NCBI GenBank assembly: GCA_022778785.1
Contig: JALFSO010000073.1
Coordinates: 1-32,190 of the forward strand
Direction of reading: 5' to 3'
Source of the DNA: Dysosmobacter sp.
Lineage (GTDB): Bacteria; Bacillota; Clostridia; Oscillospirales; Oscillospiraceae
Length of the DNA: 32,190 nucleotides
Position 1 is the stretch's first letter. Each line of letters begins with the position of its first letter. Under the pieces are notes generated by a model. That model made no database searches. It was not told where the DNA came from and saw only the letters and a program-made list of their open reading frames with translations. The translations under genes were made by a program, and so were the position numbers. Positions 250 through 14,868 of the stretch are shown one piece after another.

Positions 250-685
250 ATCAGATTGATACTTTATCCCGGCTGGCGAAGCTTTTTCTCCAGTCTGTTT
301 TGTTATGCCCTTTTTCAGTCGCGCAAATTTTGCGGGACTTTTTTCATTTCAGCTATTGACTTTTGTTTGCAGGACTCCTGATTTTGGTTTAGACCCTGGT
401 ATACCCAGGGTCATTCAAGAGGATAATATATCGTCAATTTACCATGAATTTACGAAATTGAGGGCTGTTCCTGATATGATATAAATTTCGGTATTACAAA
501 ACCGCCTTTGGGGAAACGCATCCTGAGCTCTGATTTGTGGTCATTCGCCTGTTTGGATGACTAAAGCGGACGCATCTGCGGGAATACGCTTCCCGACCCT
601 GAGATTCTCAGCCGGAGCATGAAAAAACGGCAATATTATAATATATAACAATACAGCATGACTTCATTGATAGGAGATATTGGAC
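250..685. other. Non-coding stretch between IS110 end and recombinase
   Basis: No convincing gene is seen. Besides the hairpin at 317-344 it holds an 8-bp inverted repeat, GACCCTGG-tatac-CCAGGGTC (392-412). A TATAAT hexamer at 637-642 lies in an AT-rich run 44 bases before the recombinase ATG and is a plausible -10 element, but no good -35 is visible. The stretch 500-610 contains loosely repeated GGAAACGCATCC / GGAATACGCTTCC motifs of unknown meaning. Confidence 0.4.
317..344 (+). terminator. Intrinsic-terminator-like hairpin after the transposase
   Basis: AGTCGCGCA pairs with TGCGGGACT with one internal mismatch and is followed by six T. It lies 67 bases after the transposase stop, so it could end transposase transcription or be part of the non-coding end of the insertion sequence. 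Confidence 0.5.
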
Positions 686-1531
686 ATGGAAGAACACAGA
701 TTGACTTCGGAAAAGATTCTGGCGTATGATCATTGGCTCCGGCATGAGGAACGGGCGCCGGGTACCATCGAGAAGTACCTGCGGGATATCCGGGCTTTTG
801 CCGCCTGCCTGGATGGCAAGGCCGTCACCCGGGAGGCTGTTGCCGAATGGAAGGAGGACCTGCTTTCCCGGCATTACGCACCGTCCTCCATCAACGCGGC
901 CCTGGCCGCGCTGAACGGCTTGTTTCATTTCCAGGGCTGGGATGACTGCCGGACGCGGTTCCTCAAAGTACAGCGGAGGATGTTCCGGGATTCTTCCCGC
1001 GAACTGACACGAAGCGACTATGACGCGTTGATTGCCGCGGCGCGGGGCAGGGAGCAGGAGCGGCTGGCCCTGCTCATGGAGACCATTTGTGCCACCGGTA
1101 TCCGTGTGTCCGAGGTCCGGTATATCACGGTTGAGGCGGCCAGACAGGGCCAGACGGAAATTGCTCTGAAAGGAAAGATCAGGACCATTATTCTGCCATC
1201 GCGGCTATGCCGGAAGCTGCGCAAATATGCCGCAAAACAAAAAATCGTTTCCGGTGAGCTGTTCCTCACCAGAAACGGAAAACCATTGAGCCGCCGCCAG
1301 ATCTGGGCGGAGATGAAGCGGCTCTGCAAATATGCACATGTGGATCCTGCAAAAGTATTTCCCCACAATCTGCGGCATTTATTTGCCACGACTTTTTACC
1401 ATACCTGCAGAGATGTCGTAAAACTGGCAGATGTACTGGGGCATTCTTCCATTGAGACGACCAGAATTTACCTCCTGACCTCCGGAACAGAGCACCGGCG
1501 GCAGCTTGACCGTCTGGGCCTGGTCTCGTAG
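686..1531 (+). CDS. Tyrosine-type site-specific recombinase
   Basis: This 281-residue protein has a SAM-like N-terminal DNA-binding domain (about 10-95, with YAPSSINAALAALNGLF) and a C-terminal catalytic domain. The catalytic set is visible: Arg140 in CATGIRVSEV, probable Lys164 in LKGKIRT, His227 and Arg230 in PHNLRHLF, His253 in LGHSS and the nucleophile Tyr262 in RIYLLT. It should therefore cut and rejoin DNA through a 3'-phosphotyrosine. ATG686 is preferred over TTG680 because AGGAG (672-676) is then 9 bases away. It lies upstream of a paralogue without these residues and then the surface locus, which suggests DNA inversion, excision or integration, but no recombination site is proven. 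It could instead be the integrase of a larger element. Confidence 0.85.
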   Translation: MEEHRLTSEKILAYDHWLRHEERAPGTIEKYLRDIRAFAACLDGKAVTREAVAEWKEDLLSRHYAPSSINAALAALNGLFHFQGWDDCRTRFLKVQRRMFRDSSRELTRSDYDALIAAARGREQERLALLMETICATGIRVSEVRYITVEAARQGQTEIALKGKIRTIILPSRLCRKLRKYAAKQKIVSGELFLTRNGKPLSRRQIWAEMKRLCKYAHVDPAKVFPHNLRHLFATTFYHTCRDVVKLADVLGHSSIETTRIYLLTSGTEHRRQLDRLGLVS

Positions 1532-1552
1532 GACAGAACCGACATTCCGCAT

Positions 1553-1673: not shown

Positions 1674-1902
1674 AAATTATTGCGTTAAAAAACGAAAAGG
1701 GTCTTGAATTCAAATGGAAAATATGGTAATGTTACACATGAACGATGTAGCTATCTCATATAGCTATGTGTGGCCATTGCGACAGAATGTCAATTCCGGG
1801 ATAAAGAGGGCCAGATCTGTGAGGGACTGTGCAGCAGCGGCAAAAGCTCCGGAGGACTTCCGCTGGGCCCGGTAAGACGACAGCGTCCTGCTGACTCCGG
1901 AG

Positions 1903-2658
1903 TTGATCGAGGAGTATCTGGAGACCTTGCAGGAGACCGGCTGCACGCCGAATACGCTGAACACCTACCGGATGAAGCTGACCCAGCTTTATCAATATCT
2001 GCCTGAAGACAAACGCATCCGGCCCGGCACGCTGACCCAGTGGCAGGACGATCTGCTGGATGCGGGCTATGCCCCCAGCTCGGTCAATGTCTCTACCGCT
2101 GCCGCCAATGGATTGATCATTTACTGCGGGCACCGGGAGCTTCAGACGGAAAGACCGCTGAAATGCGACCCCACTATCCAGCCGGAACTGACCCGGAACG
2201 AATATCTGCGCCTGCTGTCCACGGCGAAGCTCCTGGAGAAAGAACAGGTGTACTTGCTGATCAAGGTGCTCGGCTCCATGGGCTTGGCGCTTTGCGATCT
2301 TCCCCAGCTGACCGTACAGGCTGTACAGGATGGAAAAATTCGGATTTCTTCCGCGATTCTGCATATCCCGGGCTGCCTACAGGAGGAACTGCTGGACTAC
2401 ATACACAGGAAAGGGCTTACATCCGGACCTGTATTTGTGACAAAGATGGGGAAGCCCATCAGACGCACCAGCGTCACGGCTATGATCCAGCGGCTGTGCC
2501 GGGACGCACAGGTTCCCTGTGACAAAGCCACGCCCAGGTGTCTCAGAAAGCTGTATCAGACCACACAGGCCAGCATCCAGGAGAATGTTGTCCTGCTGGT
2601 GGAGCAGGCCTATGACCGCCTGCTGGAAAAGGAACAGCTTACCATCGGATGGAAGTAG
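1903..2658 (+). CDS. Degenerate tyrosine-recombinase-like protein, catalytic residues lost
   Basis: A 251-residue open frame parallels the recombinase just upstream. TPNTLNTYRMKLTQLYQYL and YAPSSVNVSTAAANGL match its N-terminal domain, and PRCLRKLYQTTQ matches its HxxR box. Of the catalytic set only the second Arg (R215) is kept: the Arg of TGIR aligns with Ala129 (MGLALCD), the His of HNLR with Arg212, and no LGH or terminal Tyr box is recognisable. It should not be an active strand-transferase; it may be a DNA-binding accessory factor or a decaying gene. The start is uncertain. TTG1903 begins right at the conserved core with a weak Shine-Dalgarno, and in-frame sequence from ATG1714 is interrupted by TAA at 1873-1875, so N-terminal truncation by nonsense mutation is possible. 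Confidence 0.6.
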   Translation: MIEEYLETLQETGCTPNTLNTYRMKLTQLYQYLPEDKRIRPGTLTQWQDDLLDAGYAPSSVNVSTAAANGLIIYCGHRELQTERPLKCDPTIQPELTRNEYLRLLSTAKLLEKEQVYLLIKVLGSMGLALCDLPQLTVQAVQDGKIRISSAILHIPGCLQEELLDYIHRKGLTSGPVFVTKMGKPIRRTSVTAMIQRLCRDAQVPCDKATPRCLRKLYQTTQASIQENVVLLVEQAYDRLLEKEQLTIGWK

Positions 2659-2707
2659 GCGGGGCGTGTATGAAACCATACGCCGATGCACGGTCAGACG
2701 GTGATCG

Positions 2708-2747
2708 GGGACGGCAGCATACAATACCGTCCCGGCTTACATGCCGG
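2708..2747 (+). promoter_or_regulatory. Two adjacent hairpins upstream of the signal peptidase gene
   Basis: GGGACGG (2708-2714) pairs with CCGTCCC (2727-2733), and its 12-base loop contains TACAAT. Overlapping it, CCGGC (2732-2736) pairs with GCCGG (2743-2747). They lie between the degenerate recombinase and sipW. They could be attenuating structures, or TACAAT could be a -10 element, but no convincing -35 is seen 16-18 bases upstream. Confidence 0.35.
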
Positions 2748-2776
2748 ACATACATACTAGGAAGAGGAAACTACCG

Positions 2777-3325
2777 ATGAAAGTATTCGCAAAGCTCTGG
2801 AACATCATCTCCACCTTGATTGTGATCCTCATTGTCATTCTGGCGATCCTGCTGGGCGGCGTCCGGCTGGTGGGCCTGCGGCCCTTCGCCGTGCTCTCCG
2901 GCTCCATGGAGCCGACTTATCATGTGGGCTCGCTCATCTACGTGAAGTCCTGCGACCCGGAGGACGTGGAGGTGGGCGACCCCATCACCTTCGTGCTGGA
3001 TGAAAACCTCACCGTCGCCACCCACCGGGTCATCGACATCGACCCCGACGGCGAACACTTCTACACCAAGGGCGACGCCAACGACGCCGCCGACGGCGCG
3101 CCCGTCTACTACAAGAACCTCATCGGGCGGCCCGTGTTCACCATCCCCTACCTGGGGTACTTCTCCAACTGGATCACCAATCCCCCGGGCATGTACGTGG
3201 CCATCGCCGCGGCGGGGGTGTTCCTGATCCTGCTGTTCCTGCCGGACGTGCTGAAAAAGGCCGACGAGGCGGACCAACGGGCCGCGGAGAAGAAAAAGGA
3301 GAAAGAACAGGCGGAGAGCCGCTGA
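2777..3325 (+). CDS. sipW: SipW-type (ER-type, S26B) signal peptidase I
   Basis: A 182-residue membrane protein that should cleave the special signal peptides of the TasA-like proteins encoded next to it. It has an N-terminal membrane anchor (about 8-29), the catalytic serine box LSGSMEPT with Ser43, and THRV with His83 in place of the lysine of bacterial-type peptidases. The GDAND box follows (Asp100, Asp103, Asp106). A C-terminal membrane helix (about 135-155) is followed by a Lys/Glu-rich cytoplasmic tail. ATG2777 is chosen over ATG2741 because GAAGAGG (2761-2767) is correctly spaced and the anchor then starts naturally. It is the first gene of the TasA-like string, as expected for a dedicated peptidase. 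Confidence 0.88.
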   Translation: MKVFAKLWNIISTLIVILIVILAILLGGVRLVGLRPFAVLSGSMEPTYHVGSLIYVKSCDPEDVEVGDPITFVLDENLTVATHRVIDIDPDGEHFYTKGDANDAADGAPVYYKNLIGRPVFTIPYLGYFSNWITNPPGMYVAIAAAGVFLILLFLPDVLKKADEADQRAAEKKKEKEQAESR

Positions 3326-3402
3326 AGCTGTTTGTGATGCCCGGGAGAGGAACGGGCTTGCAATAAAAACTGTTATCAATTTTTGGAAGGAGACCGAAAA
3401 CT

Positions 3403-4065
3403 ATGAAAGCAAGAAAGATCCTCGCAATGGTCATGGCTTTGGCCTTGACCGCAGCCCTCGCCGTCGGCGGCACGCTGGCGTACCTGACGTCTCAGGACAC
3501 CGTCACCAATACCTTCACCGTCGGTAAGGTCGCCATCACTCTGGATGAGGCCAAAGTGAATACGGCTGGCGAACCTGTGGATGAGAATGGTGCTAAGGTT
3601 GAGCGCCTCAATGCTCCCCGCGTTGCAGAGAACAGCTATCACCTGCTGCCGGGCCACACCTACACCAAGGACCCCACCATCACCGTTAAGGCGAACAGCG
3701 AAGAATCCTATATCCGTGTGTTTGTAAGCATCAATGAGCAGGCTGATCTGGATAAAATCTTTGCTCCCGATGGTATTGATTTGCGCACTGTCCTGACTGG
3801 TAGCAGTGACAATTGGACTTATGCTGGTGACAAGGTGGAAGACGATACTAGAACCTATGAGCTCCGTTATAAGACCACTGTTAGCGCCGGCAATACAGAT
3901 GAAAAGCTGGATCCCGTATTTACTGCTGTTGTGATTCCTGGTGAGATTACCAACGATGATTTGGCCACCATTCAGGATCTGAAGATCACTGTTGTTGCTC
4001 AGGCCATCCAGGCCGACGGCTTCGATACCGCTGACCTTGCTTGGGCTGCTTTCAAGGCTGCCTGA
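3403..4065 (+). CDS. TasA/camelysin-like secreted fibre subunit 1
   Basis: This 220-residue protein has a short basic N-terminus, a hydrophobic stretch (about 5-22) and GGTLAYLTSQD, the processing-site pattern of SipW-dependent signal peptides. It carries the family hallmarks VTNTFTVGKVAITL, LLPGHTYTKDPTITV (the xPGxxxxKDPxVxV box) and SYIRVFV, and a C-terminal AQAIQADGF...AWAAF motif shared with its neighbours. The family forms Ig-like beta-sandwich subunits that assemble into extracellular fibres in Bacillus (TasA). GGAAGGAG precedes the ATG. It follows sipW by 77 bases and is probably co-transcribed. Assembly in this organism is inferred. Confidence 0.8.
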   Translation: MKARKILAMVMALALTAALAVGGTLAYLTSQDTVTNTFTVGKVAITLDEAKVNTAGEPVDENGAKVERLNAPRVAENSYHLLPGHTYTKDPTITVKANSEESYIRVFVSINEQADLDKIFAPDGIDLRTVLTGSSDNWTYAGDKVEDDTRTYELRYKTTVSAGNTDEKLDPVFTAVVIPGEITNDDLATIQDLKITVVAQAIQADGFDTADLAWAAFKAA

Positions 4066-4102
4066 TCCCTCCGCAGCCTGACCACATAGGAAAGGAGGAA
4101 GC

Positions 4103-4729
4103 ATGATGAAGAAGAACAAGATCCTTGCTCTGGTGCTGGCCTGCGTCATCTGCGTGGGCATCGGCATCGGCGGTACGCTGGCCTGGCTGACTGCCACCAC
4201 GGGGGATGTCACGAACACCTTCACCACCAGCGATATCGATATCACGTTGGCTGAAACCAAGACTGACTTCAAGATGGTTCCCGGATGCACCATCGAGAAG
4301 GACCCCAAGGTCACTGTCAAGGCTGGCAGCGAAGCATGTTATCTATTCGTCAAGATTGAAGAATCCGAAGACGCTAAACTGAGTGACTACATAGCTTATG
4401 CGGTTGCCTCTGGTTGGGAGAAGCTGACCGGCGTAGAGGGTGTGAACAACGTCTGGTACAAGACCATAACGACTGCCACCACCTCGGATACAGCATATGA
4501 CATTCTCGGAGCTGGCACCTATACGGAAAATAGCGTGACCTACTCTTGGAACGCCAATCAGGTTCTGGTAAAGCCGAGCGTCACCAAGAAGATGATGAAT
4601 GACCTGACTGATGCGACTCGGCCTACCCTGAAATTCACCGCCTACGCTTCTCAGTATATGAAGAACAACACTGAGCACTTCGAAGCTGCTGATGCTTGGG
4701 CCAACATCTCTACTCTTTCCACCCCCTAA
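4103..4729 (+). CDS. TasA/camelysin-like secreted fibre subunit 2
   Basis: This 208-residue protein starts with MMKKNK, a hydrophobic segment and IGGTLAWLTATTGDVTNTF, a SipW-type signal region. MVPGCTIEKDPKVTV repeats the PGxxxxKDPxVxV box, followed by CYLFVKIEE in the place of the usual AYIRV strand. The C-terminus has FTAYASQY...FEAADAWANI, a divergent form of the shared AxAxQ...AW motif. AAAGGAGG (4091-4098) lies 4 bases from ATG4103 and 7 from ATG4106, so ATG4106 may be the real start. It is shorter than subunits 1 and 3 and is probably a minor or specialised subunit; function is inferred from the family. Confidence 0.78.
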   Translation: MMKKNKILALVLACVICVGIGIGGTLAWLTATTGDVTNTFTTSDIDITLAETKTDFKMVPGCTIEKDPKVTVKAGSEACYLFVKIEESEDAKLSDYIAYAVASGWEKLTGVEGVNNVWYKTITTATTSDTAYDILGAGTYTENSVTYSWNANQVLVKPSVTKKMMNDLTDATRPTLKFTAYASQYMKNNTEHFEAADAWANISTLSTP

Positions 4730-4784
4730 CCCGTTTGCAAAAACCCTTCACATAAACCAAATTTAAAAAAGGAGCGTACACATC

Positions 4785-5609
4785 ATGAGAAAAAAGATCG
4801 TAGCACTGTCCATGGCAGTCCTGATGCTGGCCGTTTGCGTCATCGGCGGCACCCTGGCTTACTTCACGGACACCGATAAGGAAACCAACACCTTCACTGT
4901 CGGCAATGTTAGCATTGACCTGATTGAGTCCCAGTATCATCGTGTCAACGCCGGTAAGGGCGATGTGGGCGATGTCGCAGAGCCTCTGCAGGGCGGCTAC
5001 CTGTGGGCTTCCAATGTGACTCTGGAAGGTACTCCCGAAAATACCAAGAACTTTGTCACCTCTGGAGAGACCTGGAGTGGCAAGTATTTCTCCGATGCTC
5101 AGATCGAGGCCGATGCTGCGACTTACAAGGACGGATATTTTGCTGAGCATAATAATATGATGCCCGGTTCCAATGTCCGCAAGAACCCCTATGTGAAGAA
5201 CACCGGCGCTAATGATGCTTACATCCGTGTCCGCGTTCTGATTCCCGTCTCCCTGTTTGACGTGATCGACAATGGCCCCTCCTATTGGACTACTACTGCC
5301 ATGTATGAAGGCGAAGTCACTTCCAATGCTGTTGACGCCTATCTGGCTGCCGGAAATACCGCAGCTAACGTTCCTGTTGTCGAGCGCAACAGCATCAAGT
5401 ACTACGAGTTTGACTTCACCTATACCGATGCTGTCAAGCCCGGCGAACTGACCTTCTGGAATGTTTGGGGCAACATTGCTATCAACAAGAATGCCACCGC
5501 TGAACAGCTGGCAAATGTTCAGTCTTTCGATGTTATCTTTGAGGCTGATGCTATCCAGGCTGACGGCTTTGCCAATGCCACCGAGGCTTTTGCTGCGTTT
5601 GACGCCTGA
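4785..5609 (+). CDS. TasA/camelysin-like secreted fibre subunit 3
   Basis: At 274 residues this is the longest of the small TasA-like proteins. It has MRKK, a hydrophobic helix and IGGTLAYFTDTDKETNTFTVG at the N-terminus. MMPGSNVRKNPYVKNTG and DAYIRVRVLIP form the core box, and EADAIQADGF...EAFAAF matches the C-terminal motif of subunit 1. About 60 extra residues lie between the signal region and the PG box (roughly 45-125). GGAG lies 10 bases before the ATG. A GC-rich hairpin follows 23 bases after the stop, then a 199-base gap before the next subunit. It is a good candidate for the main structural subunit, by inference only. Confidence 0.8.
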   Translation: MRKKIVALSMAVLMLAVCVIGGTLAYFTDTDKETNTFTVGNVSIDLIESQYHRVNAGKGDVGDVAEPLQGGYLWASNVTLEGTPENTKNFVTSGETWSGKYFSDAQIEADAATYKDGYFAEHNNMMPGSNVRKNPYVKNTGANDAYIRVRVLIPVSLFDVIDNGPSYWTTTAMYEGEVTSNAVDAYLAAGNTAANVPVVERNSIKYYEFDFTYTDAVKPGELTFWNVWGNIAINKNATAEQLANVQSFDVIFEADAIQADGFANATEAFAAFDA

Positions 5610-5632
5610 TCCCGCACCCAACAACTTCACTA

Positions 5633-5658
5633 CCCCGGGGAGGGTTTCCTCCCCGGGG
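5633..5658 (+). terminator. Strong GC hairpin after subunit 3, without a U-tract
   Basis: CCCCGGGGAGG (5633-5643) pairs perfectly with CCTCCCCGGGG (5648-5658) around a GTTT loop. No T-run follows, so it may stabilise the upstream messenger or cause partial termination rather than act as a complete terminator. The following gap (5659-5808) has TATATA at 5746-5751 and may start a second transcript. Confidence 0.5.
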
Positions 5659-5808
5659 CCTAGCCCCATCAAGACCTATCGCATATTTCCCGCGTTTCTG
5701 ATCCCTCGCGTATGAATTCGGAAATTCCTGCCCTGACGGGCAGCCTATATAAATGGAGAGCCTGAACAACAATGTGTTTTCACACAGTAAGGAGAGGTGG
5801 TACCTGAG

Positions 5809-6471
5809 ATGAAGAAGAAACTGGTACTGGGCGGCGCGCTGGTGCTGCTGGCGGCTCTGATGGCATGGGGGACCTGGGCGTACTTCGTCAAGGACGTCCA
5901 TGTGACCAATGTCATCACCACCGGCACCATCAATATCACGCTGAACGACCATATGGAGGGCGCGACCGTCAGTCAGGACGGCTCCGTGGCCACCCTCACC
6001 GGCGTCATGCCCGGCGTCACGGTGGAGAAGACCGTCTCCGTCAGCAACGATGACGCGGAGACCGCCGGGGACGCCTGGATCCGTGTGAAGGTGGATACCA
6101 CCGTCACCGGCGCCGACGGCCAGCCTATGGACGATACATTCACCAGCGGCGACGCCGCTGAGCCTGTGGTGCAGATCTCCTTCGCCGGGGACGGCAAGTG
6201 GATCCAGGAGAAGGACGCCTCCGGCGCCCCCACGGGATACTATTACTACGCCACCCCGCTGACCCGGGGCGAGCAGACGGTGGACCTTTTCAACGCCGTG
6301 ACGCTGAACAAGCTGCTGCCCAACCCCTACCAGGGCTGTCAGGTGGACATCGCCGTCAGCGCCCAGGCGGTGCAGGTGAAGAACAACAACAGGAACAGTG
6401 ACGGCAGCATCATCACCGAACTGACTGCCGGCACGCTGAGCGCGGTCAAGGGCTGGCCCGCCGAGAACTGA
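5809..6471 (+). CDS. TasA/camelysin-like secreted fibre subunit 4
   Basis: This 220-residue protein begins MKKKLVLGGALVLLAALMAW and continues GTWAYFVKDVHVTNVITTG, a SipW-type signal region close to that of TasA itself (GTWAAF). VMPGVTVEKTVSVSND and AWIRVKVD are the core box, followed by a GYYYYATPL strand also seen in the subunit encoded at 10493-11086. AVSAQAVQVKNNN is the C-terminal motif. ATG5809 is chosen over GTG5797 because GAGGTGG lies about 8 bases before it. Its codon use is more GC-rich than that of subunits 1-3. The next gene starts 18 bases on, so it is operonic. Confidence 0.78.
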   Translation: MKKKLVLGGALVLLAALMAWGTWAYFVKDVHVTNVITTGTINITLNDHMEGATVSQDGSVATLTGVMPGVTVEKTVSVSNDDAETAGDAWIRVKVDTTVTGADGQPMDDTFTSGDAAEPVVQISFAGDGKWIQEKDASGAPTGYYYYATPLTRGEQTVDLFNAVTLNKLLPNPYQGCQVDIAVSAQAVQVKNNNRNSDGSIITELTAGTLSAVKGWPAEN

Positions 6472-6489
6472 GAGAGGAGGAACTGAACC

Positions 6490-7395
6490 ATGAAAAGAAG
6501 ATTACTGGCAGTTCTCCTGGCAGCAGTATTGGTATTGATGTTTGTTCCTGCTGCCATGGCGGAGGAGAACGGGAACAGCGACGAGAGCGTTGGAAGCGTG
6601 TCCTCTGTGGAGAGTTCTGAAAATCAGGAGAACACGACAACTGATCCTGAACAGGGCGCTGAGACTCCCTCTGATCCCGAGCAGGGCACTGATACACCCG
6701 CTGATTCCGAGCAGAATCCGGGGGATTCCTCTGATCCTGCTGCGCCTGCTGAGAATCAGCCTGCAGATCCCACGCTCCCCAGCACTCCCGATATCCCGGA
6801 AATCCCTGATTCTCCGAATACCCCGGAGACTCCTGAGATTCCGGAAGATCAGCCCGAGCAGAAGCCTGAGGAGAATCCGGCCAAGGAACTGACGGAAGAA
6901 GAACTGGAGAGCTACTATCAGCAGTGCAAGTCCAATCCGGACACTGGTGTGACCGACGAACTGACGGAAGCACAATGGGAACAGCTGAAAGCGTATATCG
7001 AAAAGCGGGACGCTGAGGAAGCCGCGAAGCAGCAGCCTGTAACCTCGGCGAAGCCTGTGGGCAGAGACGGCCACATCGACGGCTGCCTGGAAGGCTGCAC
7101 CGGCGTAGACTGCGATTGCCCCTGCCATCAGGGTCTCTATGGCCGCATCATGGCCTGTGAGACACTGGAGGAGATTTACGCAATCGCTGACGCAGCCACG
7201 GACGAGGAACTGAATGCCCTCACCGACGAGGAGAACGAGGCTATTGAAGCTTACATTGAGTCTTTAGAGCCGGAGCCCCTGCCCGCAGTGGTGATTGAGA
7301 GCGAGCCCCCGGTTCCCAGTGAGATCGTCTATGGCACGGTGTCCTTCGACAATGTGGCACCCTTTGGCGCTCCGGTCGTGGGCGGAGCTGAGTAA
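6490..7395 (+). CDS. Secreted Pro/Glu-rich repeat protein with Cys cluster
   Basis: A 301-residue protein with a standard Sec signal peptide (MKRRLLAVLLAAVLVLMF, predicted cut after PAAMA), unlike its SipW-type neighbours. Residues 30-135 are a low-complexity spacer of DPEQGxxTP, SDPEQ and IPEIPxxPxTPE units, likely extended and wall-spanning. It is followed by acidic segments beginning ELTEEELESYY and ELTEAQWEQL, a Cys cluster GCLEGCTGVDCDCPCH (about 198-213), and a second acidic helical region. No LPXTG, SLH or membrane anchor is present. It lies 18 bases after subunit 4 and 11 before the VWA gene, so all three are probably translated from one messenger. I do not recognise a family; a linker or scaffold role is an inference. 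Confidence 0.7.
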   Translation: MKRRLLAVLLAAVLVLMFVPAAMAEENGNSDESVGSVSSVESSENQENTTTDPEQGAETPSDPEQGTDTPADSEQNPGDSSDPAAPAENQPADPTLPSTPDIPEIPDSPNTPETPEIPEDQPEQKPEENPAKELTEEELESYYQQCKSNPDTGVTDELTEAQWEQLKAYIEKRDAEEAAKQQPVTSAKPVGRDGHIDGCLEGCTGVDCDCPCHQGLYGRIMACETLEEIYAIADAATDEELNALTDEENEAIEAYIESLEPEPLPAVVIESEPPVPSEIVYGTVSFDNVAPFGAPVVGGAE

Positions 7396-7406
7396 GGAGG
7401 CAGAGG

Positions 7407-10400
7407 ATGAAGAAACAAAGAGTTCTGGCCCTGCTTCTGGGCCTGACCCTGCTCTGCACGGCCGTGATCCCCAGCGTTTTCGCGGCAGACGGCGACAGCT
7501 CCAATAATGGCATGGTGATCAACAAGACCGCCACGGCCAACAATGACGGCAGCTACACCATTCAGCTGGAGGCCTATGCCACCGGCTCCAAGATCATCAG
7601 CGAGGTCACTGAGGATATTCCCACGGACATCGTTCTGGTGCTGGACCAGTCCGGTTCTATGGATGATCCCATTGGTACGGTGAGCTTTGAGCCATATGAG
7701 GATGAATATGCGTATCATACCCGCAACCAGGATTATTATAAAAATCGCCATAACGGCGGCAAAGCAAACCTCTATTACCCACTGGGAAATGATGTGTATG
7801 CTTCTGTTTCTGTGACGGTTGTGAGCGATCCAACTTATGAGAATGCCAGTGGTCATAATAATTCCTATTATTATAGCAATAGAAGTAACCTTTATGAAAA
7901 AGTGGGTGAAGAAGAATATAAAGAGGTATCAGTAACTCGGAATGGTTGGGGTACTTCGTTTAATCCCTATGAATATACTTACACTTTTTATGATGACACA
8001 AGTATAACAAGCACGGGGGCTAATACTTCACCTGATTTGAGCAATCGTGCTCCTCTCTATATAGCTAGCATTGATACGGACCAGAATGTCTACACCTATA
8101 CCTACACGGACGCAGATGGTGAGCATATTATCGGTACTTCCACCGGCGCAACTACACGGCCTACGTTTGGTGAGGGTGAGAATAAAACTGCACTCTATCA
8201 AAAGGTCGTGATCAGAAGTGGAAAATCCAAACTAGATGCATTGCAAGATGCAGTTACTACTTTTGTAAAAAATGTAAGTGAGAAGGCAAAGGGCTCTGAC
8301 AGAAAGGCTGGAACATCGGATGACGTGGACCATCGCATCGCCATTGTCGGCTTTGCAAGTACAGCAAGCTGGGGTACTTATGAAAACACTGAACTGCTTT
8401 CCACCCAGAATGTTGTGAACTATGGTAGCGCAACTAATGCCAACTATCAAGATGCACTTGTCAGTGTCAATACCAATGGTTCACTGAACAGCCGACTGTC
8501 TACTGCAATCAATCGTTTGGATGCCAGTGGAGATACTTACCTGGAATACGGTATGGACATGGCTAATAGGATTTTTGCGCAGTATCCCATTGCATCGGAT
8601 GATACTTCAGGCAGGCAGCGTGTTGTCGTTGTGTTTACGGATGGTTATCCGGCACCGTCTGGAACAAACAATTTCGACTACGGCATGGCAGACAATGCCA
8701 TTAGTAATGCTCATACGACCAAGGACACTTATAAAGCAACCGTCTATACCGTGGGTGTCCTTGACGATGCCGATCCGACAGCAAGCATAACAGATGGGTT
8801 TAACTATGGCGAATCGAGTCCTGCACAGCAGACAGTTGCATCTAATAGATATATGCATTATGTGTCCAGCAACTATCCCGATGCAGCTTCGATGCAGAAT
8901 GGCGGTAATTTGTCTGATAAGGCTGATCCTTTTAACGGAGGAGATAGCTACTACCTGTCTGCCGGTGATGCTGACACGCTGAAGAATATCTTCCAGCAGA
9001 TTTCCAACAAGATCGAATCCGGCGGCTCCTCCACCACCCTGAGCAGCGAGACTGTCATCAAGGACATTGTTGCCCCGGCGTTTAATATGCCCAAGAATGC
9101 GGATGTCAAGCTTTACACGGCTGAGTCCAATGGCAGCACAAGCAATTGGAAAGACAGAGAAGAATTTAATGGAACAGTATCTATTGATGTGGATACAAGT
9201 TCTATTTCCGTTTACGGTTTTTCTTTCAAGGACTACTGGTGCGGCAATGAAACTATTAATGACGCAACGTCTTTCCATGACGGTAAAAAGTTAATTATTG
9301 AGTTCACCGTCACTCCCAAGGATGGATTCCTGGGCGGCAACAATGTGTACACGAACGGCAGTGCCGGCGTTTATGAGAACAGCGACGCTACGGAGCCCGT
9401 GCTGACCTTTGACCGTCCGCAGGTCAACGTTCCCATTGGGGAAGTTGCAGTGACGGCCGCAGAGAAGAACGTCTATCTGTTGGGCAGTGTCACCGCTGAG
9501 CAACTGAAAAAAGGTACTACGGTCAAGGTGGGCGATGTTGAGCTTGACCTCTCCAAGGCCAATGATGCTGAAAAGCCTTTTGGCCTTGAGCCCTGGCAGA
9601 CGGAGTATGTGGATATCAGCGTTAAATATTACGATGCAGACGGCGAGACGGAAATTACCGATTTGAGCAATCTGACCGATGACACCACCTACACCGTTGA
9701 AGTCACGGTCAAGCCGAACTCCAACGGCGAAGGCGCCAGCGGCGATGCGGCCACGACAGAGAGCGGCAGCAAGCAAGCCAAGGTCAACGTCTTCAAGCCG
9801 GAGCTGACTTTCAAGGACAGCGAAGTCTACTATGGCGATAGCGTTCCCACGGACTACACCGGCAATAAGGTCAGAGAGGTCTGGAAGCACGGCAACACTC
9901 TTTCCACAGCTGAAGGCGTGACCATGCTGGGAACCGCACCTGAACTGATCCTGTCCGGCACCCCTGATTCCATAAAGATCGCAGACGGCAAGATCAACAC
10001 CAAGCAGGACGTTCCCGTGGATGTGAACGTGAAGATCGGTAAAACCGATGTGACCGACGAGACCACCTTTGTCCACAATTGCGACGGTAAGACCTGCACG
10101 GTTCCGGACGGTAAGGAATTCCTGCTCCACGTCAAGACCTGCCAGCTGACCGTCACTAAGAAGGACGGCGCGTCCGATGAGCCGTATGTGTTCGACATTT
10201 ATAAGGATAACGATAAGTACACTGAAGTCACGATCAAGGGCAATAGCGGCGAGACGATCTGTGAACTGCCCGTTGGTACTTATACCATCAAGGAGGACAC
10301 CGGCTGGAGCTGGCGCTTTGCACCGAGCTATAGCGACGAGAGCGTCGAATTGAGTAGTACCAATACTTCTGGCACGATCACCTGTACGAATACACAGCAG

Positions 10401-10475
10401 AAGCATTACTGGCTCAATGGCTTCAGTTCGATCTGGAAAAATGCGCACGGTGCAAGTAAAGCTGTTAAAAAGTGA
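7407..10475 (+). CDS. Large secreted von Willebrand A-domain adhesin-like protein
   Basis: This 1022-residue protein has a Sec signal peptide ending near SVFA. The VWA domain starts at about residue 74 (DIVLVLDQSGSM). The MIDAS residues Asp80, Ser82 and Ser84 are present, and VVVFTDGYP at about 405-414 supplies a later MIDAS-side aspartate. Between MIDAS strand and first helix (SKLDALQDAVTTFV) lie about 190 extra residues, rich in Tyr and Asn (about 88-275). C-terminal beta-domains follow, ending in a Cna-B/SpaA-like module (about 912-1005, LTVTKKDG...LPVGTYTIKED). The end (YWLNGFSSIWKN, then a basic tail) has no LPXTG motif or membrane helix. It may be a ligand-binding tip protein held by the TasA-like subunits. 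GC content drops over about 7670-8980. Confidence 0.8.
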   Translation: MKKQRVLALLLGLTLLCTAVIPSVFAADGDSSNNGMVINKTATANNDGSYTIQLEAYATGSKIISEVTEDIPTDIVLVLDQSGSMDDPIGTVSFEPYEDEYAYHTRNQDYYKNRHNGGKANLYYPLGNDVYASVSVTVVSDPTYENASGHNNSYYYSNRSNLYEKVGEEEYKEVSVTRNGWGTSFNPYEYTYTFYDDTSITSTGANTSPDLSNRAPLYIASIDTDQNVYTYTYTDADGEHIIGTSTGATTRPTFGEGENKTALYQKVVIRSGKSKLDALQDAVTTFVKNVSEKAKGSDRKAGTSDDVDHRIAIVGFASTASWGTYENTELLSTQNVVNYGSATNANYQDALVSVNTNGSLNSRLSTAINRLDASGDTYLEYGMDMANRIFAQYPIASDDTSGRQRVVVVFTDGYPAPSGTNNFDYGMADNAISNAHTTKDTYKATVYTVGVLDDADPTASITDGFNYGESSPAQQTVASNRYMHYVSSNYPDAASMQNGGNLSDKADPFNGGDSYYLSAGDADTLKNIFQQISNKIESGGSSTTLSSETVIKDIVAPAFNMPKNADVKLYTAESNGSTSNWKDREEFNGTVSIDVDTSSISVYGFSFKDYWCGNETINDATSFHDGKKLIIEFTVTPKDGFLGGNNVYTNGSAGVYENSDATEPVLTFDRPQVNVPIGEVAVTAAEKNVYLLGSVTAEQLKKGTTVKVGDVELDLSKANDAEKPFGLEPWQTEYVDISVKYYDADGETEITDLSNLTDDTTYTVEVTVKPNSNGEGASGDAATTESGSKQAKVNVFKPELTFKDSEVYYGDSVPTDYTGNKVREVWKHGNTLSTAEGVTMLGTAPELILSGTPDSIKIADGKINTKQDVPVDVNVKIGKTDVTDETTFVHNCDGKTCTVPDGKEFLLHVKTCQLTVTKKDGASDEPYVFDIYKDNDKYTEVTIKGNSGETICELPVGTYTIKEDTGWSWRFAPSYSDESVELSSTNTSGTITCTNTQQKHYWLNGFSSIWKNAHGASKAVKK

Positions 10476-10492
10476 GAAAGGAGGAGACGAAT

Positions 10493-11086
10493 ATGTATCA
10501 CGGTAAACATTTAGCCAAGAAAAGTTCCGGGTGCAAGCTCAAAAGATGCAAAACCGGTGCGCTGATTCTCTCCCTCCTGCTCCTCGTCACTGTAGCTGTT
10601 GGCGGCACTGCGGCCTACCTCCTGACCAAAACGGAGCCGGTGACAAACACATTCACGCCGTCCCATGTGACATGCGAGGTGACCGAAAGCTTTGACGGAA
10701 CAGTCAAGAAGAATGTGAATGTGACGAATACCGGCGACACGGAGGCGTATATCCGGGTGAAGCTGGTAACTTATCGTATCAACGACGCTGGTCAGCATAT
10801 CGGCGGTGCGGCAACGATTCCATCGGGCCTAGAGTTGGGCGAAAACTGGGTCGAGCGTGGCGGATATTATTACTATACGAAGCCGGTTGCTCCTAACGGA
10901 TCGCCTGACAAAAGTTTGATTGGTGAATCTGGCATCAATCTAATTTCTTACACCGATGCCGACGGCGGCAAGCAGGTCATCGAAGTTATGGCGGAGGCCA
11001 TCCAGAGCAGCCCGGCTAAGGCAGTTGGGGAATCCTGGGGAGTCAGCATTTCTGAGGGCAGCATTACTGCCTATGATGCCGGTTAA
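10493..11086 (+). CDS. TasA/camelysin-like secreted fibre subunit 5
   Basis: This 197-residue protein has a long basic N-terminus (KKSSGCKLKRCKTG), a hydrophobic helix (about 23-37) and VGGTAAYLLTKTEPVTNTFTP, a SipW-type signal region. KNVNVTNTGDTEAYIRVKL is the core strand, GGYYYYTKPV matches subunit 4, and VMAEAIQSSPAKAVGESWGV is the C-terminal motif. ATG10493 is preferred over GTG10472, which overlaps the VWA stop, because AAAGGAGGAG lies 7 bases before it. Position between the VWA gene and the SLH-anchored protein, plus the unusual N-terminus with two Cys, suggest an adapter subunit. That role is inferred. Confidence 0.75.
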   Translation: MYHGKHLAKKSSGCKLKRCKTGALILSLLLLVTVAVGGTAAYLLTKTEPVTNTFTPSHVTCEVTESFDGTVKKNVNVTNTGDTEAYIRVKLVTYRINDAGQHIGGAATIPSGLELGENWVERGGYYYYTKPVAPNGSPDKSLIGESGINLISYTDADGGKQVIEVMAEAIQSSPAKAVGESWGVSISEGSITAYDAG

Positions 11087-11100
11087 AGGAGGCGGACAGG

Positions 11101-12510
11101 ATGAAAAAATTGAGCAAGCGGCTGCTGGCTGTCGTCCTGTGCGTGGTCATGCTGCTGGGCGTCGCGGTGTATACCGTGGCGGCCCAGGGCAGGGAGGCCA
11201 CCATTGTCTTCGACGCGGCCACCGGGACCTTTACCATCAACAACGTGGCCATTACCTACGGTGAGGACGGCAAGCAGCAGGGGACCTACCCCGACCTGTT
11301 CCCGGAGATGAAGGGACTGATGCCCGGCGACAGCGTGCAGCAGACCATTAAGGTAAAGGTGAAGAACGCGGGCGCGGACACCGTGAAGCTGATGCTGAAG
11401 GCGGAGGACGTCACGGCGGAGCCGGACCGGAATCCCACCAATGACGACTACGACAAGCTGGTGTCCTACAAGACCGAGAGCGGCGAGGGCGTGACGCTGT
11501 CTGTGAAGTTCGACGGACAGAGCTATTCCGGCGAGCTGACGAAGCTGGTGGCCAATGCCGCCGCGAATCAGACCCAGGGCGTCTATCTGGGCGCGTACAC
11601 CGGCAAGGATTCCGAGAAGGAATTGACCGTGGACCTGTCCATCCCCCTTGCGGCCGGCAATGAGCTCCAGGGCCTCACCGCCCAGCTGGGCTGGGTCATC
11701 ACCGCCGAGGTGATCCCCTACAGCGGCGGCGGAGGAGGCGGTGGCGGCAATAAGCCGGTTCTGGACGTCACCAACCACTTCGCCTATATCATCGGCCGCA
11801 AGGACGGCAACATCCATCCCTGGGCGCAGATCACCCGCGGCGAGGTGGCAACCATCTACTTCCGTATGCTGACCGACGAGGCCCGGAACAAGTACTGGTC
11901 CACCAGCAATCCCTATCCGGACGTGGCGCCCAATACCTGGTGCAACAACGCCATTTCCACCATGACCAACGCCGGTGTGGTGCAGGGCTACAAGGACGGC
12001 CTGTTCCGTCAGAACGCGCCGATTACCCGCGGCGAATTCGCCGCCATGGCCGCCCGCTTCTTCGACGTGGAATACAGCGGCCCGGACAAATTCAGCGACA
12101 TTGACGATCACTGGGCGAAGGACTACATCAACAAGGCGGCGGAGGCTGGCATCATCCTGGGCTACAAGGACGGCACCTTCCAGCCGGAGCGGTATATCAG
12201 CCGCGCGGAGGCCATTCTGATCTTCAACCGCGTCCTGGAGCGCCATCCTGACAAGGACCACCTGCTGGATGATATGATCACCTGGCCGGACAACATGGAT
12301 CCGGATGAGTTCTTCTATGCGGACGTTCAGGAGGCTACCAACTCCCATGACTACGAGATGAAGAAGGATCCCAGGGGCGAGACTTACGAGGTCTGGACAA
12401 AGCTCCAGCCCGTCCGCGACTGGGCCGCCTTCGAGAACGAGTGGGCGACTGCCAATGCGGCTTCCAACCCCGGCAATGTGTATTCCTCCTCCAAGTCCAC
12501 TGTGAACTGA
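11101..12510 (+). CDS. SLH-anchored protein with N-terminal TasA-like domain
   Basis: This 469-residue protein has a signal peptide (about 1-28), then a beta-rich domain (about 32-205) containing GLMPGDSVQQTIKVKVKNAG, the PGxx box typical of TasA/camelysin proteins. An eight-glycine linker (about 209-216) leads to three S-layer-homology modules at about 226-258 (ITRGEVATIYFRML), 271-320 (YPDVAPNTWCNNAI, GYKDGLF, ITRGEFAAMAARFF) and 330-378 (FSDIDDHWAKDYI, GYKDGTF, ISRAEAILIFNRVL). A Trp- and Asp-rich tail follows. SLH triplets bind pyruvylated secondary wall polymers, so this is the likely cell-wall anchor of the assembly. It starts 14 bases after subunit 5 and is followed at once by the terminator. 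Confidence 0.85.
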   Translation: MKKLSKRLLAVVLCVVMLLGVAVYTVAAQGREATIVFDAATGTFTINNVAITYGEDGKQQGTYPDLFPEMKGLMPGDSVQQTIKVKVKNAGADTVKLMLKAEDVTAEPDRNPTNDDYDKLVSYKTESGEGVTLSVKFDGQSYSGELTKLVANAAANQTQGVYLGAYTGKDSEKELTVDLSIPLAAGNELQGLTAQLGWVITAEVIPYSGGGGGGGGNKPVLDVTNHFAYIIGRKDGNIHPWAQITRGEVATIYFRMLTDEARNKYWSTSNPYPDVAPNTWCNNAISTMTNAGVVQGYKDGLFRQNAPITRGEFAAMAARFFDVEYSGPDKFSDIDDHWAKDYINKAAEAGIILGYKDGTFQPERYISRAEAILIFNRVLERHPDKDHLLDDMITWPDNMDPDEFFYADVQEATNSHDYEMKKDPRGETYEVWTKLQPVRDWAAFENEWATANAASNPGNVYSSSKSTVN

Positions 12511-12516
12511 ATCAGG

Positions 12517-12557
12517 AAAACCGACCCTGAGCCACATTCCGGTCCAGGGTCGGTTTT
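12517..12557 (+). terminator. Rho-independent terminator of the surface operon
   Basis: AAAACCGACCCTG (12517-12529) pairs perfectly over 13 bp with CAGGGTCGGTTTT (12545-12557), and the T-run is the end of the 3' arm. It begins 6 bases after the SLH gene stop and marks the end of the fibre operon. Confidence 0.9.
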
Positions 12558-12924: not shown

Positions 12925-13740
12925 ATGAAAAACGATTTTACAGGCGCCCGTTTCGGACGGCTGACGGTCATCGCCCCAACGGAGCAGCGGAATCGCGGGA
13001 CCATCGTCTGGCGGTGCCGCTGTGACTGCGGAAAGGAGGTCCTGGTGGACAGCCGGAAGCTGAGCGCGGGAGCCGTCAGAAGCTGCGGCTGTGACGAGCC
13101 GGACTATGCCGCCATCAAGGACCTGACCGGCATGCGCTTCGGCAGGCTGGTGGTCCTGGGAAGATCGGGAAACCGGGCGAAAGACCGGAATCCCCTCTGG
13201 CGGTGCCGCTGTGACTGCGGGAAAGAGATGGAGACCACCAAGCGCAGACTGATCACCGGCGCTGTGTCGAGCTGCGGCTGCGCCAGAACGCCGCCGATGA
13301 AGGATCTGGTGGGAAAGCGGTTCGGCCGGGTAGTCGTGGAGGAATACGCCGGAAAGGCGAACGGCTTCCACATGTGGCGGTGCCGCTGCGACTGCGGCAC
13401 AGAGTTCACCACCAGACAGTCCAATCTGGAGAACGGGCAGACGACAAGCTGCGGCTGCAAGCACCGGGACCGGTCCGGCCTTCACTTTGTGGACGGTACG
13501 TTTGTGGAGGGGATCGACTCCATGACCGTTTCCAAGGCCAACACCAGCGGCGTGCGGGGCGTCTACTTCAACAAAAGGCGTGGCAAATGGATCGCCCAGA
13601 TCGTGTTCAAGGGCAAGTGCTATTACCTGGGCGGCTATGACAAGCTGGAGGACGCGGCCAAGGCCAGAGCGGTGGGCGAGGAGATATACGATCAATTCCT
13701 GGAGTGGTATCACGCATCCCGGGAGCCCGCGATCAAATGA
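12925..13740 (+). CDS. Triple zinc-ribbon plus AP2 DNA-binding-domain protein
   Basis: A 271-residue protein with three copies of a ~50-residue module, DLTGxxFGRLxV...WRCRCDCGxE...LxxGxxxSCGC. They lie at about 4-56, 66-119 and 126-178, each with a CxCxC and a CxC cluster (Cys31/33/35/54/56 in the first). The C-terminal domain (about 205-255) has SGVRGVYFNKRRGKWIAQI and YYLGGYDKLEDAAKA, the three-strand-plus-helix pattern of AP2/ERF-like DNA-binding domains common in phage and homing-nuclease proteins. No nuclease motif is present, so it is probably a DNA-binding protein of a mobile element. ATG12925 has no clear Shine-Dalgarno. The module-encoding DNA is nearly identical around 13007, 13196 and 13374, suggesting recent duplication. 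Confidence 0.75.
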   Translation: MKNDFTGARFGRLTVIAPTEQRNRGTIVWRCRCDCGKEVLVDSRKLSAGAVRSCGCDEPDYAAIKDLTGMRFGRLVVLGRSGNRAKDRNPLWRCRCDCGKEMETTKRRLITGAVSSCGCARTPPMKDLVGKRFGRVVVEEYAGKANGFHMWRCRCDCGTEFTTRQSNLENGQTTSCGCKHRDRSGLHFVDGTFVEGIDSMTVSKANTSGVRGVYFNKRRGKWIAQIVFKGKCYYLGGYDKLEDAAKARAVGEEIYDQFLEWYHASREPAIK

Positions 13741-13779
13741 GGAAAACTTGAAGGCTTGCTGCAAAAGGAGGTGACGGAC

Positions 13780-14868
13780 GTGCGGCAGACGCTGTATGAC
13801 TACTGCGTGGAGAACGGGAAGACGTTTTTGCTGGAGCAATGGCATCCCGAAAAGAACCTGCCTCTGACACCGGAAAATCTGACCTGCGGCAGCAGAAAAA
13901 AGGTGTGGTGGAGATGTCCGGACGGCCACGAGTGGCAGGCGGCTGTCTGCACCCGCACAGGCGGCGGAGCGGGCTGTCCCTGCTGCTCCGGGAAACAGCT
14001 CTGGCCGGACCGGGACGATCTGGCGTCCCGGTATCCCAAACTCGCCGCCCAATGGCACCCCACGATGAACGGCTCCGTCACGCCGGACAGGGTGCTTCCC
14101 GGCAGCCATAAACTGGCCTGGTGGATTTGCGGGAAGGGCCACGTCTGGCGGGCCATGGTGAAAAGCCGGACGGAGGGCAGCGGCTGCCCCTATTGTGCCA
14201 ATCAGGCGCTGCTGCCCGGTGAAAACGATCTAGCTACCACCAATCCGGAGCTTGCCCGGCAGTGGCATCCCACGAAAAACGCACCGCTGACGCCCCGGAA
14301 TGTGGTGGGCGGCAGCAGCCGCAAGGTGTGGTGGCAATGTGAGCGGGGCCATGAGTGGCAGGCGGTGATCTTTTCACGGGTCCAGGGGACGGGCTGTCCG
14401 GTCTGCGCGGGAAGACGCGTTGTCCCCGGCGAAAACGACCTGGCCAGTCAGTTCCCGGACCTTGCGGCTCAGTGGCATCCGGAGAAGAACGGCACGCTGC
14501 GCCCGGACGCCGTCTCCCCCAATTCCAACCGCAAGGTCTGGTGGAAGTGCGGGCTGGGGCACGAATACGCCGCCATCGTGGCGTCCCGCACCATGCACCG
14601 CAGCGGCTGTCCCTACTGCACCGGGAAGAAGGTCCTTCCCGGGTTCAATGACCTTGCCGCGCTGGAGCCGGAGTTGGCGGCCCAGTGGCACCCTGGCTTG
14701 AACGGCGCCCTGACGCCGGAGATGGTGACCGTTGGGAGCCATCGGAAGGTCTGGTGGCAGTGTCCGGAGGGACACGTCTGGAAAGCGGTCATCTGCTCCC
14801 GGGCCAGGGCGCAGAAGTGCGGCTGTCCGGTCTGCGCCGGACGGGTGAGGGCCGGACGCACGGGTTAA
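13780..14868 (+). CDS. Five-repeat zinc-ribbon (DUF4379-like) protein
   Basis: This 362-residue protein is built almost entirely of five copies, spaced about 70 residues (near 21, 92, 162, 232 and 302), of the pattern QWHPxxNxxLTPxxVxxGSxxKVWWxCxxGHEWxA...R..GxGCPxCxGxxxLPGxNDLA. Each unit has a WWxC...GH and a CPxC, consistent with one zinc site. This is the treble-clef-like DUF4379 (PF14311) type. In known proteins such repeats often accompany a nuclease domain; none is seen here. GTG13780 is chosen over TTG13756 because AAGGAGG (13765-13771) lies 8 bases upstream. It follows the AP2 protein by 39 bases and is probably co-transcribed. Nucleic-acid binding is likely; the role is unknown. Confidence 0.72.
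   Translation: MRQTLYDYCVENGKTFLLEQWHPEKNLPLTPENLTCGSRKKVWWRCPDGHEWQAAVCTRTGGGAGCPCCSGKQLWPDRDDLASRYPKLAAQWHPTMNGSVTPDRVLPGSHKLAWWICGKGHVWRAMVKSRTEGSGCPYCANQALLPGENDLATTNPELARQWHPTKNAPLTPRNVVGGSSRKVWWQCERGHEWQAVIFSRVQGTGCPVCAGRRVVPGENDLASQFPDLAAQWHPEKNGTLRPDAVSPNSNRKVWWKCGLGHEYAAIVASRTMHRSGCPYCTGKKVLPGFNDLAALEPELAAQWHPGLNGALTPEMVTVGSHRKVWWQCPEGHVWKAVICSRARAQKCGCPVCAGRVRAGRTG

Follow-up and report, generated by a model that had tools for sequence, protein, structure and literature searches.

Which surface structure does the SipW operon at positions 2777 to 12510 of contig JALFSO010000073.1 (Dysosmobacter sp., probably a gut bacterium) encode, and how would it be assembled, held at the wall and regulated? 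An initial annotation of the window, which is the whole analysed stretch of 32,190 nucleotides (nt), proposed a self-contained extracellular fibre system there. We found that the operon is real and conserved, and we consider it likely that it encodes, under phase-variable control, a multi-subunit fibre of the TasA/camelysin kind that is anchored to the wall.

Gene order and conservation of the operon

The features of the operon and its borders are as follows.

2777..3325, plus strand: SipW-type signal peptidase, start ATG at 2777 (archaeal-type model TIGR02228, 110.4 bits, cut-off 51.85)
3403..4065, plus strand: T1, TasA-like subunit with donor motif YLTSQDTVTNTF (TIGR04088, PF12389; motif)
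4103..4729, plus strand: T2, TasA-like subunit with donor motif WLTATTGDVTNTF (TIGR04088, 19.9 bits, cut-off 19; motif)
4785..5609, plus strand: T3, TasA-like subunit with donor motif YFTDTDKETNTF (TIGR04088, PF12389; motif)
5633..5658, plus strand: 11-bp hairpin without a U tract, between the shaft genes and the rest (-25.9 kcal/mol, z -6.0, 12 shuffles)
5797..6471, plus strand: T4, TasA-like subunit, AYFVKDVHVTNVI (PF12389, 22.9 bits; TIGR04090, 46.3 bits, below cut-off; family alignment)
6490..7395, plus strand: Pro-rich protein, weakly matching N-terminal regions of single VWA proteins in loci L072 and L028
7407..10475, plus strand: VWA protein, proposed tip (PF13519; DxSxS motif; C-terminal CnaB-type domain and tail)
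10410..10472, plus strand: C-terminal tail of the VWA protein, WLNGFSSIWKNAHG..., proposed donor strand, degenerate in this copy (donor-motif comparison)
10472..11086, plus strand: T5, TasA-like subunit with donor motif YLLTKTEPVTNTF, alternative ATG at 10493 (T5 profile; motif)
11101..12510, plus strand: likely wall anchor, a TasA-like domain without donor motif and three SLH modules (SLH; TasA fold of the L027 relative; SLH/sortase swap)
12539..12553, plus strand: weak terminator-like 6-bp stem, near chance

The genes for SipW, T1–T4, the Pro-rich open reading frame (ORF), the VWA protein, T5 and the SLH protein are all open frames on the plus strand, which bears out the co-orientation and the single signal peptidase described at the outset. 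The order of SipW, between one and four TasA-like genes of the shaft type, T4, VWA, T5 and, at the end, an anchor gene was found again in other genera and families of the same order, so the conservation that had been suggested as a check was borne out among 52 annotated loci (the window plus 13, 18 and 20, with annotation profiles built from seven of them). Neighbouring pairs numbered 28 for SipW–shaft, 24 for shaft–T4, 21 for T4–VWA, 31 for VWA–T5 and 29 (19 + 10) for T5–anchor, and the anchor directly followed T5 in 29 of the 37 loci with a strong T5 match (33 with a large ORF upstream and 4 without). Loci were picked through VWA or T5-profile matches, which favours those genes, and T5 was always sought beside VWA; SipW and the anchor played no part in the picking. 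Gene orders deviate in L117 and L118, and L036 and L038 hold VWA-SLH proteins without T genes.

The T5 profile, which also catches other T subunits, matched 34 of 300 genomes and 22 of 106 genera in a family sample (E ≤ 1e-3); at E ≤ 1e-12 it matched 47 of 295 genomes in an order sample (36 of 149 genera) and 21 of 291 in a class sample, the three samples overlapping one another. None of five other genomes of the genus had a match, and thus the operon is patchy. A T5 homologue in an NCBI metagenome-assembled genome (MAG) named Dysosmobacter sp. (P0102) is 82% identical to T5 of the window, which makes an Oscillospiraceae-type gut bacterium of this kin the probable host. Within the genome itself, the profile gave five matches, all on this contig, and these are the five T genes. 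In the large protein families, 3317 T5-profile matches (a count that may take in other T subunits) were obtained among the 7999 best candidates scored, and 2363 matches to the C-terminal end of the VWA protein. A contig titled as a Desulfobulbus MAG (L088) encodes a 57% relative of this VWA end, probably through a binning error or transfer. In L117 (12422–14083), a T5-like domain lies inside a 553-residue ORF, possibly a natural fusion.

The five different TasA-like proteins of the initial annotation are present as open frames, with family-model support that is uneven among them. The SipW-type signal model TIGR04088 matched T1, T2 and T3 above its cut-off and gave no match in T4 or T5. T1, T3 and T4 passed PF12389 (camelysin), T2 stayed below its cut-off (16.9 of 22.5 bits) and T5 had no match. 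The BsaA-family model TIGR04090 matched T1, T3, T4 and T5, all under its cut-off of 60 bits and T4 best, and the sole match to the Bacillus TasA equivalog NF046066 (cut-off 450 bits) was T4 with 16 bits. The subunits therefore lie outside the curated TasA and BsaA families, and only some of them fall within the wider camelysin and SipW models. SipW scored 104.6 bits against the Bacillus equivalog NF046067, under the curated cut-off of 190. Most T subunits carry a donor-strand motif after the signal peptide; the GGT-type processing region reported earlier has to be corrected for T4, which has WGTWAY.

A terminal gene with a probable, exchangeable wall attachment

Among 37 copies of the terminal gene, 10 end in SLH modules, 22 in a TGD-type sortase signal and 5 in a variant thereof, and the TasA-like N-terminal domain is kept while the type of end varies. 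It is likely that this gene encodes a wall anchor. For the copy in the window, the three SLH stretches were found as described, the evidence for its TasA-like domain being the fold of the L027 relative. Sortases were encoded by 4 of 9 tested ORFs downstream of anchor genes, and none of the five sortase matches of the present genome, as candidates for a pilin sortase in the cluster, lies on this contig. Assembly without sortase, as first proposed, thus fits the operon of the window and not the family as a whole. The layered plan of anchor, TasA-like shaft and VWA tip gains support from the conserved order and from the swap between SLH and sortase-signal anchors.

Two observations were made in L116, where the operon (1843–4901) holds two SipW-type peptidases and an unlabelled ORF (3607–4368) carries a PETGD sorting signal and is perhaps its anchor.

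The VWA protein and its tail

RrgA and GBS104 are located at the pilus tip and carry a sorting signal. In the window, no LPXTG-type end was tagged in T1–T5 or in the VWA protein, in agreement with the earlier description of the latter, and none was found among 120 listed VWA proteins, a set that takes in the one of the window. With no sorting signals on shaft or tip and no pilin sortase in the cluster, the window lacks the hallmarks of a sortase pilus. A CnaB fold was seen in the structure model of the L039 VWA relative. In 24 of 33 VWA proteins adjoining T5, the tail reproduces, with equal spacing, the donor-strand motif found at the N-terminus of the T subunits, compared to 0.87 for shuffled tails (the VWA controls of this count include L031, which is probably frameshifted). 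The same motif occurs in none of the 37 anchor proteins. In L118, the VWA gene has been relocated away from T5 with its donor-like tail retained.

The Pro-rich ORF, initially taken for a spacer protein, is best regarded as a part split off from the VWA protein, since it weakly matches VWA N-termini in L072 and L028 and since a similar separate ORF precedes the VWA gene in L104; given the N-terminal matches, an independent spacer subunit is less likely.

A hairpin between the shaft genes and the rest

The gap between shaft genes and T4 has a median of 155.5 nt (62–373, n = 24), and the T4–VWA, VWA–T5 and T5–anchor gaps have medians of 12–17 nt. Hairpins of -15 kcal/mol or below were detected in 16 of the 24 shaft–T4 gaps (one of which, in L110, is actually shaft–VWA) versus 3 of 34 other gaps of at least 55 nt, the latter being shorter and including a T4–T4 gap in L071 that is probably the same boundary mislabelled. 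The scan covered the first 110 nt of gaps up to 300 nt (L074 was left out for its length), with z-scores from 12 shuffles each. A canonical terminator at this boundary was rejected, as most of these hairpins have no U tract. In Clostridium perfringens, transcription from one promoter gives a sipW-bsaA mRNA and, by read-through past a predicted terminator, a longer one (PMC7395162). The hairpin would yield more shaft than tip or anchor protein.

The claim that the operon ends at one terminator stands in part; the stem after the anchor gene is present and weak, and a terminator scan found 19 such sites against 13.0 ± 3.6 expected.

A recombinase-linked promoter segment upstream

The region before SipW contains the following features.

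680..1531, plus strand: XER1, tyrosine site-specific recombinase (NCBIfam XerA/XerD-type matches; GIRVSE, HNLRH and LGHSSIETTRIY boxes as catalytic motifs)
1534..1549, plus strand: left recombination site CAGAACCGACATTCCG (site-matrix rank 2 of 64,350 windows)
1783..1798, minus strand: right recombination site, inverted (rank 1 of 64,350; 233 nt from the left site)
1704..1750, plus strand: promoter-like element of the putative invertible segment, pointing at the operon (pattern common to six segments; sole match in the window)
1903..2658, plus strand: XER2, catalytically dead recombinase paralogue (54% identical to XER2 of L038)

The site matrix was made from eight sites of four other loci (L121, L123, L124 and L038), without the window, yet after the window sites had been spotted by eye. 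The two sites of the window are convergent and agree in 12 of 16 bases. A further pair, with agreement in 16 of 16 bases, then came to light in L122, and the XER1 homologues in G064, G074 and G291 have one of two inverted 16-bp sites a few bases past the stop codon. Site-matrix pairs outside the window were found only in L038 and L121–L124, in a search that did not look for other kinds of switch and in which many loci break off close to SipW. In L116, a perfect 23-bp pair that differs from these sites follows the recombinase; its right arm coincides with the start of the SipW frame as called, and the family match of that frame sets in only at residue 64–66.

A promoter-like pattern (TTG-N3, 16–18 nt, TA-N3-T, 5–14 nt, ATGTA(A/G)) occurs exactly once in each of six segments; of 1800 shuffled segments, 4 hold it at least once. 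In the window and L038 the pattern is directed at the target gene, in L121–L124 at the recombinase, and homologous segments stand in opposite orientations among loci. Inverted repeats on both sides of a promoter-like element, next to a recombinase, form the layout of an invertible switch, and, judged from these sequence features, the operon is under a probable invertible promoter. In the alignment, XER2 of the window and of L038 misses the catalytic Arg, His-x-x-Arg, His and Tyr of XER1, and this loss suggests that it acts as a regulator. Clostridioides difficile is known to invert promoters that lie between imperfect repeats, and there too short repeats surround the promoter segment (pdcB: 174 bp, 19-bp repeats); the sites are unlike those of the window, which also has an adjacent recombinase gene and a dead paralogue downstream (PMC9286219).

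The segments are directed at the fibre operon in the window and L116, at a VWA-SLH protein in L038 and at large SLH proteins in L121, L123 and L124, and no SLH or VWA match was found beside the recombinase in L122, L125 and L126. The recurrence of a recombinase with a repeat-flanked segment before unrelated large SLH/VWA proteins (680–1798 here; L038, L116, L121, L123 and L124) looks as if it were a plug-in switch.

Proposed assembly and alternatives

Within the reading that we consider likely, assembly would run as follows. SipW would free the N-terminal strands of T1–T5, each of which would fill the groove of the next subunit by donor-strand exchange, so that T1–T5 would be both donor and acceptor, with T5 serving as an adaptor. 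As the VWA protein lacks such an N-terminus, its C-terminal tail would enter the last free groove and place it at the far end of the fibre, in the position that the adhesin has in a sortase pilus. The anchor, with a TasA-like groove and no donor, would accept the final strand at the cell wall, to which SLH modules would attach it here and sortase elsewhere. Through the hairpin, shaft mRNA would exceed tip and anchor mRNA, and XER1 would flip the promoter so that only part of the population makes fibres. The furthest-reaching form of this model, on which we lean slightly to doubt, is a capped donor-strand polymer with a donor-only tip, at which a C-terminal strand replaces the sortase signal, a donor-acceptor shaft, an acceptor-only base with a swappable SLH/sortase plug, and an invertible promoter.

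Several results weigh against the phase-variable fibre reading. The donor motif is absent from 39 of 137 T subunits (truncated frames included), the strict motif is missing in 9 of 33 VWA tails, with L075 and L120 having no such tail at all, and the tail in the window ends in N-A-H and ranks 26 of 1941 with the donor matrix. This matrix is permissive, as the SLH-ended control VWA proteins of L036 and L038 reach C-terminal ranks of 4 and 10, and both the donor and the promoter patterns were composed after viewing the sequences. A consensus promoter scan of the segment picked out another promoter, which points outward and is at chance level. Of the annotated T-operon loci, the window and L116 alone showed a recombinase close to SipW; this and the restricted spread of the site-matrix pairs led us to reject a switch as the core of all such operons, in a search confined to this kind of switch and with many loci breaking off close to SipW. 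The TasA match of the L027 anchor domain ties in Z with an unrelated beta-sandwich, below the level at which the tool is telling; sequence-level PDB searches with the T4, T1–3, T5 and anchor profiles did not find TasA.

Structure predictions also lean negative on strand exchange. AlphaFold was run on two in-frame read-through pairs, T5–anchor of L027 and VWA tail–T5 of L039, and both models of these artificial fusions had confident domains and no exchanged strand, with linkers that contain a signal peptide helix. The T5 donor segment was modelled as helix or coil and the VWA tail as coil (predicted local distance difference test about 45–55), the predicted template modelling score being 0.47 in both, from 30 and 22 aligned rows. 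One alignment, which laid the ends of VWA-only rows on the T5 donor strand, was discarded because it would have biased the model. The 50 best plain Foldseek matches of the T5–anchor model did not include TasA, and TasA was not among the matches listed for the VWA–T5 model. Single-chain predictions of this kind cannot exclude donor-strand exchange.

The tight packing of VWA, T5 and anchor, with T1–T3 beyond the hairpin, would also suit a short surface adhesin complex of these three, in which T1–T4 make a separate released matrix fibre and the VWA tail serves as a peptide for docking to T5 rather than as a donor strand. Six loci with VWA and T5 had no detected anchor (L037, L073, L101, L107, L111 and L116), L080–L085 have T genes and an anchor with no VWA match within the locus stretch, and BsaA polymers of C. 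perfringens are mainly released (PMC7395162). However, the VWA tail has the donor motif at the same spacing, and in L118 it was kept although the gene had moved from T5, and thus we regard this arrangement as unlikely.

As a donor-only protein suits initiation as well as a tip, the VWA protein could instead be a chaperone or initiator of a TasA-like matrix system, comparable to TapA, which gives its first strand to TasA (PMC10151520), or to CapP, chaperone-like in Bacillus cereus (PMC13082335). Such a role appears improbable for a protein whose DxSxS motif and CnaB stalk resemble pilus adhesins and which is large (1022 residues here, and larger in 16 of 33 frames compared). That the operon merely combines independent SipW-exported surface proteins with no fibre would agree with predictions showing no exchange, yet it is highly improbable in view of the donor motif, the conserved order, the TasA-like fold of the anchor domain and the SipW gene within the operon.

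Comparison with known systems

The system probably functions as a TasA-type fibre whose tip and base are in the style of a pilus. It shares with tapA-sipW-tasA of Bacillus subtilis (PMC9674648, PMC10151520) a dedicated SipW, a TasA-like fold, suggested here for the anchor domain by the L027 relative, and an N-terminal donor strand bared by cleavage, which is suggested here by sequence. Unlike that fibre, the window has no recognised TapA, and it has five subunit types, a wall anchor, a probable phase switch and a VWA protein whose donor-like C-terminal tail is found in relatives and is degenerate here. The C. perfringens cluster sipW-bsaABCRSD (PMC7395162) likewise has SipW with BsaA-type subunits (those of the window being below the family cut-off), and it makes bicistronic and read-through mRNAs at the site that corresponds to the hairpin here and shows bimodal expression; it differs by a two-component system and mainly released polymers, where the window has an anchor, a VWA protein and a putative invertible promoter (BsaB–BsaD were left out of the comparison). 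TasA/CalY/CapP of B. cereus (PMC13082335) resembles it as a sortase-independent heterofilament of two camelysins, and an SLH/sortase anchor subunit and a VWA protein are not in its description.

Sortase pili with the adhesins RrgA and GBS104 (PMC7835359) share the tip-shaft-base plan and a VWA domain on Cna-type stalk domains, whereas here the sorting signal of the tip is replaced by a donor-like tail and the shaft is not sortase-linked. The type V fimbria Mfa1 of Porphyromonas gingivalis (PMC7835359) bears the VWA tip Mfa5 on a fibre thought to use donor-strand exchange; it is Gram-negative, with another fold and export, and Mfa5 needs type IX secretion. Our literature search, with most subscription papers and all bioRxiv preprints outside its scope, found no TasA-type fibre with its own wall-anchor subunit and VWA tip.

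TasA-type fibres have so far been known as biofilm matrix threads, and the proposed wall-anchored fibre would extend this Bacillus design. If the capped polymer is true, it would represent a general Gram-positive pilus type of this order, which combines the tip of a sortase pilus with the shaft of a TasA fibre. The anchor swap and the donor-like VWA tail offer a concrete, testable answer in large protein families, and a phase switch would yield mixed populations. New relative to the initial annotation are the promoter segment linked to a recombinase, the hairpin between cistrons and the donor-like tail of the VWA protein.

Neighbouring genes

An IS110 fragment suspected from its appearance at the contig start had no Pfam match and was dropped. 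Near the anchor, a gene with an AP2 domain (sub-threshold PF00847) was detected in four loci of three genera (12925–13740 in the window; L102, 3201–3896; L105, 12609–13274; L112, 3243–3908). In the window, it is directly followed by a gene (13756–14868) that encodes a protein with five DUF4379 treble-clef zinc fingers.

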